From an uncultured Prevotella sp. (GTDB lineage Bacteria; Bacteroidota; Bacteroidia; Bacteroidales; Bacteroidaceae), in NCBI GenBank assembly GCA_945787895.1, contig CALZJQ010000008.1, forward strand, positions 1 through 39,819: DNA of 39,819 nt, in the 5' to 3' direction. The notes under the pieces were generated by a model. The model was not told the DNA's origin and made no database searches. It was given only the letters and a program-made list of their open reading frames with translations. Positions 196 through 38,092 of this stretch are shown here, piece after piece; within the stretch, counting starts at the first letter, position 1; every line of letters begins with the position of its first letter. Position numbers and translations under genes: made by a program.

Positions 196-1713
196 TTGCC
201 TATAGTTAGTAAATTGGAGGAATCGCATGGGCTCTTAATTGAGATTCCTTTGCCCTCACTGCCTTTCGGATTCCTCATAAGGTTGAGACCAATAATTGAG
301 TATAGTGTCTCTATTATTGGAAGTGGAGAAGTCGTATTATGGTTTTCCAATTCAGTGGTAGAAACAACTATCTCCAATGGGGAAAAAATAGAAAAAGAAC
401 CGCAGCAACTCAAGTCCCCTTCCCCTGAAGTGTCAAGCTCGATAGTAGGAAAAGCCAGTTTCACAGCCGGGGCTGAGCTTTTTCTTGGCTTTGGAAAAAA
501 AATACTTGGAGCGCTTGAGCCATCTGCTATCGGATTGGGCGTAGCAGCCTCATTTGAAGTAAATGCAGAAGCGGAAGCAAATTTTGCCTGGGATTGGGGA
601 TGCCTCGACGGCTCCCTCGATTGTGGGGTTACTATTACAGCAGATGCTACGGTCGGTGCCAAGGCATTGGGTGGAAGATGGGGCGAATACGACTTCTTGA
701 CTAAAGAGTTCAGGGTATGGGATGGACCCAGTTGGAAATTCTATCCTTCTGTTAGTGTGAATGATGATATTCCAATTGTTTACCACGAAAACGCTGACGA
801 AAAGTACAAAGAAATCAAAGTTACTTATACATACAAAAATCTCGGATTCTTTGCTTCTTTTACGAAAAGTTATTTTCATCCCCGCCTTAGGATATACCGC
901 GGAACAGATCTTTACGGCAATGAATCATATATAGATCTCGAACCAGACAACAAACCGTCTCATGTAGAGAAAGGCGAACCATACACCTTTACATACAAGA
1001 CTATTGAGATAGATCAGGATTTTACGGTCGTTCCATTGCTATACTATGAGAAAGGGGTTAACCACTCCACCTTTTTTACTGACAATGTACGATATTTAGA
1101 TAAAAATAGAAAGCCGATAGTTCAGTTTTATCATTCTGATGATAGAAGCGTAAAGGGAGATAGAACGGTTTATCTGTATAAGACAGTAAAATTGAAGGAT
1201 GACGACCCTTTATATCAGCAGAATGCAATTCAATCCGGACTAACTTTGTATGCTTATGACTTTTGCTTACCTTTCCGTATCCACAATGCTACAAACATGG
1301 CGGATTACTGGTCGGATTTTGGAATTAAATATATGGTCTATCTTGATAATATTGCGGAAGGCAGATACCAAAGTTTGTTCAATAAGATTAAAAAGAGCAA
1401 ACCATATGCACCGCATTTCACAGTAGTCACAGACAAGTACTTTAATTACTCATCACGTAATTATGTTAAGGCACAGCTCTACTATGTAAATAAAGATGAC
1501 CCCAAAAAAGAAAAACACTATTTCAATGAGATAGGTGACTGGATGTTCTGCTGGAGCAAATATTTAGATTCTGACTATGAATTGGGAGATGCTGATGTAC
1601 TATTGTATGATAGAGCAAAATTCATGTTCTATGAAGATAAAAGAGAAACCTGGGATTGGGAAGAAGAATTCTCAAAAGATGATTTTTTGACAATTAATTA
1701 TAAGAGCAAATAG
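196..1713 (+). CDS. Hypothetical protein, 5' end disrupted or missing
   Basis: I do not recognise this protein. The only usable start is TTG at 196; the first in-frame ATG lies far inside (in the N-A-T-N-M-A-D segment near residue 368). The frame is open back to codon 55, and the residues from 55 to 195 look like genuine protein (alternating beta-type and charged stretches), ended upstream by TAA at 52-54. All three frames carry stops within the first 54 bases. I infer that the true N terminus lay further upstream and was cut off by a stop or frameshift, or that the gene is a decaying remnant. The visible protein has a glycine/alanine-rich stretch near residues 85-160, like a beta-rich surface protein, then a Tyr/Lys/Asp-rich C-terminal half. 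The C-terminal half is AT-rich compared with the housekeeping genes to the right, which could mean acquisition by transfer. Confidence 0.6.
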   Translation: MPIVSKLEESHGLLIEIPLPSLPFGFLIRLRPIIEYSVSIIGSGEVVLWFSNSVVETTISNGEKIEKEPQQLKSPSPEVSSSIVGKASFTAGAELFLGFGKKILGALEPSAIGLGVAASFEVNAEAEANFAWDWGCLDGSLDCGVTITADATVGAKALGGRWGEYDFLTKEFRVWDGPSWKFYPSVSVNDDIPIVYHENADEKYKEIKVTYTYKNLGFFASFTKSYFHPRLRIYRGTDLYGNESYIDLEPDNKPSHVEKGEPYTFTYKTIEIDQDFTVVPLLYYEKGVNHSTFFTDNVRYLDKNRKPIVQFYHSDDRSVKGDRTVYLYKTVKLKDDDPLYQQNAIQSGLTLYAYDFCLPFRIHNATNMADYWSDFGIKYMVYLDNIAEGRYQSLFNKIKKSKPYAPHFTVVTDKYFNYSSRNYVKAQLYYVNKDDPKKEKHYFNEIGDWMFCWSKYLDSDYELGDADVLLYDRAKFMFYEDKRETWDWEEEFSKDDFLTINYKSK

Positions 1714-1830
1714 TAATTTTGTGGATAGTTGTTGGTTGTTGGTTGCGTTGGTTCTTGAGATATTTCAAGACATCAATGCATTATTAACCCACAACCAATA
1801 ACTCACAATCAGGTAATACAACCCACAACC
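1714..1830 (+). repeat. Intercistronic G/T then A/C repeat element (locus 1)
   Basis: A G/T-rich run of degenerate GTTGTTG units (about 1721-1754) follows the upstream stop. An A/C-rich run of CCCACAACC-like units (about 1786-1830) ends directly at the ATG of the DUF1573 gene. The two arms are roughly complementary and could pair in RNA. It is the first of six similar elements in the window (others at 23530, 26204, 27508, 28354 and 37902). Confidence 0.7.
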
Positions 1831-23529: not shown

Positions 23530-23680
23530 GGTTGGCGATTGTTGGTTGTAGGTTGTTGGTTGTAGGTTAATAATGTCTTTCTAATGGAGAGTTTATCCTG
23601 AGGAAAAGGCAATCCAACCAACAACCCACAACCAATAACCCACAACCGAAAACCCACAACCCACAACCCACAACCATTAA
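23530..23680 (-). repeat. Intercistronic G/T-A/C repeat element (locus 2)
   Basis: On the - strand, after the S9 peptidase stop there is a G/T-rich run of GGTTGTGGGTT-like units (23675-23613). Then follows a spacer, then an A/C-rich run of ACAACCAAC-like units (23568-23530) that ends at the ATG of the YjbR gene. The arms are complementary. This is the clearest copy of the element. Confidence 0.75.
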
Positions 23681-26167: not shown

Positions 26168-26203
26168 AGTAGTATATATATATCTTATGTTTCGCAGGCT
26201 TCA

Positions 26204-26363
26204 GCTTGTTATTTGTGGTTTTAAGGTTTTACGGCCAGTACATGGTTGTAGGTCGCAGTTTTTGGGTTGTAGGTGGGGATGCTTGGCTGATGGAGGGTTT
26301 CTCAAGAGTTGAGGTTGGCCTGCCCGCAACCCACGACCTGAAACCAGGAGCCCGCAACCGTAT
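26204..26363 (-). repeat. Intercistronic G/T-A/C repeat element (locus 3)
   Basis: Between the LpxH-like gene and the S9 peptidase gene. On the - strand a G/T-rich arm (26360-26322) follows the stop codon and an A/C-rich arm (26277-26212) lies about 45 nt before the next start. It is less regular than locus 2 but built the same way. Confidence 0.6.
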
Positions 26364-27507: not shown

Positions 27508-27645
27508 TTGCGGTTTTAAGGTTTTGCGGTTTTAAGGTTTTGCGGTTTTGTGGTTTTGTGGTTTTAAGGTTATAAGGAAGTCTGTAAGGTCAGAAAGTAA
27601 CTTCCGTAAAACCTTACAACCTCATAACCCTAAAACCTCAACCCT
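27508..27645 (-). repeat. Intercistronic G/T-A/C repeat element (locus 4)
   Basis: On the - strand a G/T arm (about 27645-27606) runs from the radC stop and an A/C arm of AAAACCGC/AAAACC units (27577-27509) ends 8 nt before the SufT-like start. The repeat pattern continues into the last codons of radC (to about 27660). Confidence 0.65.
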
Positions 27646-28353: not shown

Positions 28354-28461
28354 GGCTGGTTGTTGGTTTTAGGTTTTGGGCTTTAGGTCATTGGTTGACA
28401 GTGCTTTTGTTGTGGCGACTTTTAAGGTTAATCTGACCCACAATCAAAGACCCTCAACCTG
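28354..28461 (-). repeat. Intercistronic G/T-A/C repeat element (locus 5)
   Basis: Between the glycosyltransferase and radC. On the - strand a G/T arm (28460-28432) follows the stop, and an A/C arm (28396-28356) with ACCTAAAACCAACAACC-like units ends at the radC start. Confidence 0.6.
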
Positions 28462-30676: not shown

Positions 30677-30745
30677 AGTGCGCAGGAAGCCAAAAGGGAA
30701 ACGGCTGGGAAAATGCCTGTGTAACAGGTTGAAACACAATAGGTT

Positions 30746-30833
30746 GCAATAGCGGCGCTTTTACCATGCAATAACGGCGCTTTTACCTCGTAATAGCGGC
30801 GCTTTTACCTTGTAATAACGGCGCTTTTGTCTT
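30746..30833 (-). repeat. 22-bp tandem repeat array B (four units)
   Basis: Units start at 30746, 30768, 30790 and 30812, each 22 bp, with a near-invariant core CGGCGCTTTT and alternating TAGCGG/TAACGG. The reverse complement aligns to array A at 2474-2539, so the strand is given as minus relative to that array. It lies outside predicted transcripts, between the rpmH terminator and the next promoter. Confidence 0.8.
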
Positions 30834-30915
30834 GCAGTCTCTCAGCTGTGTTTTTTTCATGTTTCCCGCGTATGCGCGCAGTACCATAAATAATGATAAA
30901 AAGCAGGGGAAAAAT

Positions 30916-32762: not shown

Positions 32763-32783
32763 TTCTTCGACCTGGTCGAAGAA
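32763..32783 (+). promoter_or_regulatory. Palindrome before ddl
   Basis: TTCTTCGACC and GGTCGAAGAA form a perfect 10-bp inverted repeat with one central base, in the rluD-ddl gap, 31 nt before the ddl start. A near-identical palindrome lies 32 nt before argG (38040-38060). It may be an operator, an RNA hairpin or a dispersed small repeat. Confidence 0.6.
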
Positions 32784-32814: not shown

Positions 32815-33816
32815 ATGGCCTCACTAAAGAGAAGCATAGCAATAGTATGCGGAGGAGATTCCTCCGAGCACGACGTTTCCCTGCGTTCAGCTCAGGGACT
32901 CTATTCCTTCTTCGACAAGGAGAAATATGATTTGTACATAGTAGATATCAAGGGTCAGGACTGGCACGTCAACCTCCCGGACGGAAGCACGGCACCGATA
33001 GACCGCAACGACTTCTCGTTCAGGTACAACGAAAAGACAATAATCGTAGATTACGCATATATAACCATACATGGTACCCCAGGAGAGAATGGACTATTAC
33101 AGGGATATTTCGATCTTGTCCACGTACCTTACTCCACGAGCGGTGTCCTCGTCGAAGCACTTACATTCGATAAGTTCGTACTCAACAACTACCTGCGCGG
33201 CTTCGGCATCTCGGTGGCAGAAAGCATCCTCGTGCGCCGCGGCGACGAGGACAAACTGACGGAGCAGAGCCTCAAGGAGACGGTAGGATTTCCATGCTTT
33301 GTCAAGCCGGCTGCTGACGGCAGCAGCTTCGGAGTAAGCAAGGTGAAGGAGTTCGACCAGTTGGCTCCTGCTCTCCGCAAGGCCTTCATGGAGAGTGACA
33401 CGGTGATGATAGAGGCATACCTCGAAGGAACGGAAATATCGCAGGGATGCTACAAGACGAAGGAAAAGTCTGTCGTGCTGCCAGCCACGGAGGTGGTCAC
33501 GAGCAACGAGTTCTTCGACTACGATGCCAAATACAATGGTCAGGTAGAGGAGATAACGCCTGCACGCCTCGCTCCGGAGACCACAGAGCGAGTGGCAAAG
33601 ATAACGTCAGCCATCTACGACATCCTCCACGCCAACGGCATTATCCGTATCGACTACATCATTTCCAAGACGGCAGACGGAAAGGACAAAATCAACATGC
33701 TGGAGATAAACACTACCCCGGGCATGACGGCCACCTCCTTCATACCTCAGCAGGTGAGGGCTGCCGGGCTCGACATCAAGGACGTGCTCAGCGAGATAGT
33801 GGAAAACCAGTTCTGA
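32815..33816 (+). CDS. ddl: D-alanine-D-alanine ligase
   Basis: A 333-residue ATP-grasp ligase. I chose the start at 32815 (M-A-S-L-K-R-S-I-A-I-V-C-G-G-D-S-S-E-H-D-V-S); the 41 residues upstream overlap rluD and the palindrome and are not family-like. Visible motifs: G-G-D-S-S-E-H-D-V-S (first substrate loop), H-G-T-P-G-E-N-G (variant of H-G-x-x-G-E-D/N-G), F-V-K-P-A-A-D-G-S-S-F-G-V (ATP-binding), and M-L-E-I-N-T-T-P-G-M-T at the metal site. It joins two D-alanines for peptidoglycan precursors in the cytoplasm. It follows a PASTA protein and RluD, with a palindrome in the 82-bp gap, so it may have partly independent expression. Confidence 0.96.
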   Translation: MASLKRSIAIVCGGDSSEHDVSLRSAQGLYSFFDKEKYDLYIVDIKGQDWHVNLPDGSTAPIDRNDFSFRYNEKTIIVDYAYITIHGTPGENGLLQGYFDLVHVPYSTSGVLVEALTFDKFVLNNYLRGFGISVAESILVRRGDEDKLTEQSLKETVGFPCFVKPAADGSSFGVSKVKEFDQLAPALRKAFMESDTVMIEAYLEGTEISQGCYKTKEKSVVLPATEVVTSNEFFDYDAKYNGQVEEITPARLAPETTERVAKITSAIYDILHANGIIRIDYIISKTADGKDKINMLEINTTPGMTATSFIPQQVRAAGLDIKDVLSEIVENQF

Positions 33817-37277: not shown

Positions 37278-37907
37278 ATGAAAGATATTAGGATTTTAGT
37301 AGCCGACGCATCACACGAGAAGTATGTCGATACTATCCTTGACACTATTCGACAAGCTGCCAGGAAACGAGGCACAGGAATAGCAGAACGTACACATGAG
37401 TATGTAGCTACGAAGATGAAGGAGGGAAAGGCTATACTCGCCCTCGACCCGACAGTCCAGACGGAGCTCGGAGACAAATTCGTAGGATTTAGTTATATCG
37501 AGACGTGGGGAAACAAGGAATATGTCACTACGAGTGGACTCATCGTTCATCCTGATTACCTCGGATGCGGGGTGGCAAAGCAAATAAAGAACTATACGTT
37601 TACCCTTGCACGGGTACGTTGGCCTCATGCCAAGATATTCTCGCTTACCAGTGGTGATGCCGTGATGAAGATGAATACACAACTCGGTTACGTGCCCGTC
37701 TCCTTCAATCAGCTCACTGATGACGATGCTTTCTGGCGTGGATGCGAAGGATGTATCAATCATGACATACTGGTGATGAAGCAACGGAAGTTCTGTATCT
37801 GTACGGGAATGCTCTACGATCCAGAGAAGCATACAGGAGAACCTACACCTATAGAGGTATTCCAAGACGTGATAAAGACTCTTACGCTGAGAGGAATACC
37901 GTTTTAG
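37278..37907 (+). CDS. GNAT-family N-acyltransferase in the arginine cluster
   Basis: A 209-residue GNAT protein. The acyl-CoA binding block is L-I-V-H-P-D-Y-L-G-C-G-V-A-K-Q-I, preceded by strand Y-V-T-T-S-G and followed by helix Y-T-F-T-L-A-R. It has a C-terminal extension with several cysteines (G-C-E-G-C, F-C-I-C-T). It lies 36 bp after argR and upstream of argG. Bacteroidetes lack a usual ArgA/ArgJ and some use N-succinyl intermediates, so I infer this could be the first enzyme, an N-acetyl- or N-succinylglutamate synthase. I recall genetic work in Bacteroides implicating a GNAT gene in this step, but cannot verify it here. The stop codon lies inside a repeat. Confidence 0.85.
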   Translation: MKDIRILVADASHEKYVDTILDTIRQAARKRGTGIAERTHEYVATKMKEGKAILALDPTVQTELGDKFVGFSYIETWGNKEYVTTSGLIVHPDYLGCGVAKQIKNYTFTLARVRWPHAKIFSLTSGDAVMKMNTQLGYVPVSFNQLTDDDAFWRGCEGCINHDILVMKQRKFCICTGMLYDPEKHTGEPTPIEVFQDVIKTLTLRGIPF

Positions 37908-38092
37908 GTTTTAGGTTTTAGTTTTAGGTTTTAGTTTTAGGTTTTAGTTTTTGGTTTTAGTTTTTAGGTTGGAATAGCCTTGGTCGTTGAGAGAACTCCA
38001 TTGTGCTGAAATGACCAAGCAGCGAAACAACCCCAGGAACTCTTCGACATGGTCGAAGAGAAAAAACAACGAAACAACAAAACAACAGAATA
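37902..38092 (+). repeat. Intercistronic G/T-A/C repeat element (locus 6), telomere-like
   Basis: From the last codons of the GNAT gene to about 37970 the sequence is TTTTAGG/TTTTAGT repeats. An A/C-rich run of AACAAC/AAACAAC units (about 38062-38090) ends just before the argG start. Between them lies the palindrome at 38040-38060. Confidence 0.7.
38040..38060 (+). promoter_or_regulatory. Palindrome before argG
   Basis: CTCTTCGAC (38040-38048) and GTCGAAGAG (38052-38060) around ATG, 32 nt before the argG start. It shares the core CTTCGAC-x-TGGTCGAAG with the palindrome at 32763-32783. Confidence 0.6.

Follow-up and report, generated by a model that had tools for sequence, protein, structure and literature searches.

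Among the described systems closest to the repeats analysed here is BrickBuilt of Porphyromonas gingivalis, a member of the same phylum. As published, it resembles our family in several ways: it is a short, non-coding, intergenic MITE whose ends are inverted and whose target sites are duplicated, it contains a tandem array with predicted long stems, and in many copies one end or both are missing (PMC4596501). BrickBuilt, by the same account, occurs in 18-19 copies with IS5-like GAGACCTTTGCA-type ends and has a single array of 23-nt direct repeats and a distinct leader and tail (PMC4596501). The family described here has two inverted arms of 7-8-bp units, TCAAGTTTCGCAAG ends, several cores between identical ends and a density of about 13 arm elements per 100 kb; the elements found here do not carry the IS5-like GAGACCTTTGCA-type ends. 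Galileo, a foldback-like element of Drosophila, is described as having inverted arms that are long, repetitive inside and variable in length, as well as chimeric copies in which the middle of one subfamily lies between the ends of another, and 7-bp target duplications, all of which recall our elements (PMC3573991). Our family is far smaller, however, and bacterial, and Galileo has a known P-superfamily transposase (PMC3573991); the likeness is one of build alone. PINSR, a 188-bp repeat of Prevotella intermedia and Prevotella nigrescens with 177 and 184 copies in two strains, is likewise an amplified, intergenic, non-coding repeat, but its authors report no terminal inverted repeats, whereas ours combines ends and target duplications with inverted tandem arms; we set PINSR apart by its description, its consensus appearing in a figure (PMC4755523). 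REPs and REPINs, as described, are like our elements in being intergenic palindromes of high copy number, and they too occur at junctions of all three gene arrangements (co-directional, convergent and divergent); unlike them, our elements are without the GTAG tag and with target duplications, and no associated RAYT was found (PMC3733652). A description of the present family was not found in the open-licence PMC literature, and its arm-unit strings matched three paper texts, all under unrelated titles.

The window, a stretch of 39,819 nt from the genome of an uncultured Prevotella sp., has six junctions at which a G/T-rich repeat (GT arm) is followed by an A/C-rich repeat (AC arm). They had been listed in a sequence-only reading of the window, and on re-inspection all six read as they had been described. 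Arm units from a larger sample of the genome (57 elements, see below) are of three types: A (22 elements, 7-bp GGTTNTN), B (25 elements, 8-bp TTGTTTNG) and C (10 elements, 8-bp GGTTTTAN). The six places are as follows.

1714..1830, arm pair, A-like by its arm unit, between the genes at 196-1713 (+) and 1831-2286 (+, DUF1573); GT arm at about 1717-1757, AC arm at about 1786-1831 and abutting the ATG; no match to a core profile.
23530..23680, A-type element between an S9 peptidase gene and a YjbR gene (both -); core at 23560-23619 (E 2.4e-6).
26185..26363, composite between a metallophosphoesterase gene and the S9 peptidase gene (both -); in order, a degenerate left end TTATGTTTCGCAGGC at 26185-26199, a C-type GT arm at about 26215-26235 and an A-type element with its core at 26268-26324 (core profile E 1.5e-7).
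27508..27645, C-type element between radC and an Fe-S assembly gene (both -); core at 27565-27618 (E 0.0019).
28354..28461, degenerate arm pair between a glycosyltransferase gene and radC (both -), recognised by eye; below the pair rule and with no core-profile match.
37901..38092, arm pair before argG (+); GGTTTTA-type GT arm at 37901-37972, AC arm at 38061-38092; in the interior, a weak A-like core at 37967-38002 (E 0.2) and a palindrome, CTCTTCGACATGGTCGAAGAG, at 38040-38060.

Four of these places (1714, 23530, 27508 and 37902) were also recovered by an automatic pair rule, which takes G/T runs followed by A/C runs no more than 120 nt further on, and the more degenerate ones at 26204 and 28354 are seen by eye only. 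We applied this fixed rule to 439,819 nt (~440 kb) of the genome, made up of the window and 20 stretches of 20 kb, and obtained 57 GT-then-AC pairs against 5 AC-then-GT pairs. Each of ten replicates of a second-order Markov control gave no GT-then-AC pair. The arm elements make up 2.05% of the sample, and would number 357 genome-wide if the sample density holds. A search of this and related genomes had also been proposed: under a slightly different pair rule, the own-genome sample has 54 pairs, and 316 kb sampled across 20 other genomes of the genus yielded no pair. In three relatives, referred to below as G084, G328 and G021, the modified rule gave 5 pairs in 157 kb, 11 in 137 kb and 6 in 57 kb, respectively, densities that are biased by choice, many of these stretches having been picked on account of a match. 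An A-type query matched 4 of 398 genomes of the genus (E <= 1e-10) and a B-type query 22 of 398 (E <= 1e-8), the own genome being among the matches listed, and high first-look counts were confined, among the matches listed, to G000, G328, G084 and G021. ArgG is 94% identical to that of G084 and 91% to that of G328; of the relatives that are named for the S9-peptidase locus, most are Prevotellaceae or Prevotella MAGs.

Outside the arms of some elements the sequence runs on into TCAAGTTTCGCAAGC at one side and into ACTTGCGAAAGTTGA at the opposite side, and the copies that bear such ends have terminal inverted repeats of about 15 nt. The end pattern TCAASTTTSGCARG, with at most one mismatch, matched the genome 103 times, against 3 matches for a backward control. 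Both longer ends were present in 15 elements, which measure 151-276 bp and in six cases exactly 159 bp, and the flanks of these 15 were identical at 7.13 of 9 positions, compared to 4.77 +/- 0.29 after permutation (0/5000). With shorter ends, 29 candidate pairs were found, 18 of them of 148-170 bp, with short, AT-rich target-site duplications; flank identity was 6.48/9 against 4.45 +/- 0.20 after permutation (0/3000), in a test that keeps one false pair lying in a gene (L021:4670) and two spans that use the ends of neighbouring elements (L152:473 and L134:1402). By arm type, the duplication was clearest for C (0/3000, n = 20), weaker for A (113/3000, n = 4) and not significant for B (511/3000, n = 3). 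Exact target copies of 7-9 bp were seen by eye in 14 of the 29 pairs, and the aligned flanks suggest a duplication of 7-8 bp around an element that runs from C-TCAAG to GTTGA-A. The shorter-end search found no pair in the 316 kb of 20 other genomes and none in the G084, G328 and G021 loci. The same ends enclose A arms (L146, L149:731, L157), B arms (L014, L148, L149:3089) and C arms, and we therefore see here a family that is MITE-like but has a foldback-like interior, variable from copy to copy. As in MITEs, the copies are short, numerous and dispersed and have no gene inside; as in foldback elements, long inverted arms, here of tandem 7- or 8-bp units, surround a variable middle, with three main core types found inside identical ends.

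The GT/AC repeats are thus very probably the inverted arms of a non-autonomous, non-coding family of DNA transposons, MITE-like and of foldback-like build, and the AC-rich arm is best read as often becoming the leader of the next gene. We observe the arms, cores, ends and target-site duplications, together with several types between the same ends and turnover at orthologous junctions. A full copy opens with an inverted end (C)TCAAGTTTCGCAAGC and a short subterminal stretch, followed by the GT-rich arm with its tandem 7-8-bp units, a short core and the complementary AC-rich arm; a second subterminal stretch then leads to the end ACTTGCGAAAGTTGA(A), and about 7-8 bp of duplicated AT-rich target flank the whole. 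A trans-acting transposase would move such copies. Once a copy is in place, the sequence beyond its arms, along with the ends, would be lost until the stop and start codons reach the arms, which slippage could both lengthen and shorten. No recognisable end lies within 70 nt of 51 of the 57 arm elements; a recognisable end is kept in 6, three of which have both, compared to 1.7% per end at random places. The lack of ends in 51 of 57 weighs against this reading, since the descent of these copies from the end-bearing form has to be traced through their shared arms and cores. Arm lengths differ strongly between end-bearing and end-less copies, a difference that we do not count as evidence because the end-less set was selected by arm score.

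The cores align within each arm type, least well in C, and core profiles built without the window copies recover the window cores at 23560 and 26268 (A) and 27565 (C), so that three of the six places have a significant core match; that the other three have none is a point against the transposon reading. The sequence-only reading held that what is kept between loci is strand bias and pairing and not the exact sequence. This is right only by half: the units are of three types, and conserved cores go with them. The relatives G084, G328 and G021 have comparable arms around different cores: core strings of the own genome were not found in the stretches of these relatives at up to 4 mismatches, and the B core profile had two matches in G021 (E 0.0002 and 0.003). 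That these relatives have the arm units in common with this genome but not its ends or core strings also counts against the transposon reading.

Further composites, layered in structure, were seen at L015:16082-16256, L021:2182-2362 and L021:19526-19721. In these, A arms lie inside GTAGTWCCNGG/CCNGGWACTAC-like motifs with B-type AC arms further out, and they look as if elements nest or exchange modules.

At each of the six window places the GT-rich repeat comes first in the direction of transcription, a constancy that the earlier reading had pointed out. It holds no gene-strand information: because a GT...AC inverted repeat gives GT...AC on either strand, the polarity is trivial, a by-product of mirror symmetry. 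The orientation of the cores, by comparison, is with the genes in 24 cases and against them in 21. The placement between co-directional genes, true of the six window places, does not extend to the sample, in which 45 elements are at co-directional, 6 at convergent and 5 at divergent junctions and one is at an edge; set against 274 co-directional, 27 convergent and 24 divergent adjacent gene pairs, as called by a simple codon-usage caller written for this analysis, no co-directional preference is visible. Abutment on the start codon, also part of the earlier description, is indeed a property of many elements: in 27 of the 45 co-directional ones the AC arm stops no more than 15 nt short of the start codon and no more than 40 nt past it. 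At the other side, the GT arm starts within the same range of the stop codon (40 nt inside to 15 nt off) in 35 of the 45. The median co-directional gap is 178 nt with an element (45 gaps) and 81 nt without (229 gaps), and a median of 12 nt of the co-directional gap remains outside the element. Co-directional copies with both ends fill their gaps less tightly than arm elements do (15 vs 45, Mann-Whitney P 0.0018), the element limits being defined differently in the two sets.

The presence of elements at orthologous junctions differs between species, one genome per species being compared. Where this genome has an element, a paired-arm element was found at 1 of 8 comparable orthologous junctions in G084 (one of these comparisons, L013:2934, spans 1.3 kb of extra sequence) and at 1 of 9 in G328. 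The reverse is seen at 33816/33867, which has none here and an element with other cores in both G084 and G328. The mobility proposed for these repeats is thus borne out by shared cores, ends, target-site duplications and presence or absence at junctions; for their proposed expansion we have the varying arm lengths, which would suggest it. At several orthologous junctions of another species, UBA1710 (L033 6230-10020), we noticed other inverted fillers, for instance arms that contain AGTTCATAGTGCA and palindromes of which CCCTCCCATAAAGGGAGGGGAGTAG is an example.

It is possible, though we hold it only tentatively, that the family goes further than this, with the ends fixed, the arms and cores swapped as modules, the AC arm serving as a ready-made Shine-Dalgarno-free leader and junctions being progressively rebuilt throughout the genome. 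With such a leader at hand, insertion between stop and start would be harmless or useful. Bacteroidetes are described as initiating translation without Shine-Dalgarno sequences and as favouring A at -3 (PMC6847099), which may make an AC leader acceptable. Directly upstream of the start codon, the final 20 nt have 52% A, 26% C and 8% G where an element is present, compared to 40% A, 17% C and 13% G in leaders without arms. The main reading of the family itself includes that the AC arm, as a leader rich in A and poor in G, would be tolerated or retained because of this mode of initiation.

A less likely account is that the repeats grew where they stand, with no transposition involved, slippage and template switching having extended short seeds that lay at the stop codon and within the A-rich leader. 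The argG junction speaks for it, since its arm unit TTTTAGG matches the host sequence of G084 at the stop codon (CCGTTTTAGGACGG) and its AC arm resembles the G084 leader, which suggests that some arm growth was local there; the two arm lengths of an element correlate only weakly (0.13), and cores differ between species, as this account would also have it. Against it stand the cores common to dispersed loci, as well as the transposon ends and target-site duplications; growth in situ may still be the source of later arm lengthening and of core-less junctions.

The sequence-only reading went on to suggest that the RNA hairpin could control translation or stability of the downstream gene. We consider such a transcribed hairpin, maintained by selection, improbable. 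The location between stop and start would suit such a role, and RNA folding, which had been proposed as a check, predicts a strong hairpin for 23530-23680 (-59.8 kcal/mol, z -5.16) and a median of -48 kcal/mol over the 57 elements. But strong folds are expected of a family with inverted arms, and the folding of a 159-bp copy as DNA gives a z of -4.75. The arms of one locus match each other no better than same-type arms from elsewhere: own-arm duplexes have -31.5 kcal/mol against -31.7 for arms of other loci (a fit this good or better in 399/2000 permutations), nor do the two arms of a locus have unit variants in common (332, 1171 and 872 of 2000 permutations as close or closer for A, B and C, respectively). 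The copies at convergent and divergent junctions, the nearly even core orientation relative to genes and the lack of an element at most comparable orthologous junctions likewise speak against control of the downstream gene, and there were no Rfam matches in the window at gathering scores. Structure near the start codon is reported to lower initiation (PMC6847099). A stable hairpin before the AUG should hinder initiation and therefore fits a leader role badly, unless ribosomes open it. That the elements are REP/REPIN-type palindromes moved by a Y1 (RAYT) transposase is very unlikely: they are short, intergenic, palindromic and high in copy number and the genome has one Y1-like open frame, but the Y1 match is below the Pfam cut-off with no arms in its 2-kb locus, and the ends are TCAAG.../...GTTGA with target-site duplications instead of a GTAG-tagged hairpin.

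For the transposon family, we looked for a parent transposase and for mobile carriers. An autonomous version in the form of a gene between opposed arms or ends was rejected, a Pfam scan having found no transposase among ten genes so placed (zinc-ribbon, NADH dehydrogenase subunits, pectate-lyase-like, RsmG, glycosyl hydrolase, DUF2582, EamA, acyltransferase); these belong to three arm spans of the sample and to wider spans between ends at C23 (L146) and C41 (L148), and the scan excluded three further genes in the L009 span and another two in an L021 span. Eighteen non-genic end matches in 20 further stretches led into arms in 11 cases by threshold and 3 by eye, and into nothing clear in 4. Among the matches listed, we saw no parent insertion sequence with matching ends in this 198-contig draft, in which Y1 was the one transposase type searched genome-wide; this counts against the transposon reading. 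The Y1-like frame (L051:70-1071, G000:C69) encodes a protein of 333 residues, whose Y1/HUH-like match falls slightly short of the Pfam cut-off. Two occurrences of AAGCGACGAAATCGC(TTG) lie a short way downstream of this frame, and GT/AC arms are absent from its 2-kb locus. No stretch with core and end patterns was found on viral contigs, and the 159-bp copy matched no phage record and one plasmid record, the latter over 35 bases only.

If the preferred reading is true, some 2% of this genome and many of its translation-initiation regions derive from one mobile family, which would be a bacterial counterpart to foldback elements. Its copies would then form a natural set of many replaced leaders, probing what the Bacteroidota ribosome tolerates directly upstream of the start codon.

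Other repeats occur in the same DNA. A second palindromic repeat, TTCTTCGACCTGGTCGAAGAA, lies at 32763-32783 and 38040-38060 of the window and has 29 matches over both strands in the 440 kb (at most 3 mismatches), often near an A-rich leader; it was absent from the stretches of the relatives that were examined. Tandem repeats of 22 bp are present at window positions 30744-30836 and 2472-2567, and TTGCAATAACGGCGCTTTTACC has 6 matches in the 440 kb, 4 of which are inside the window.
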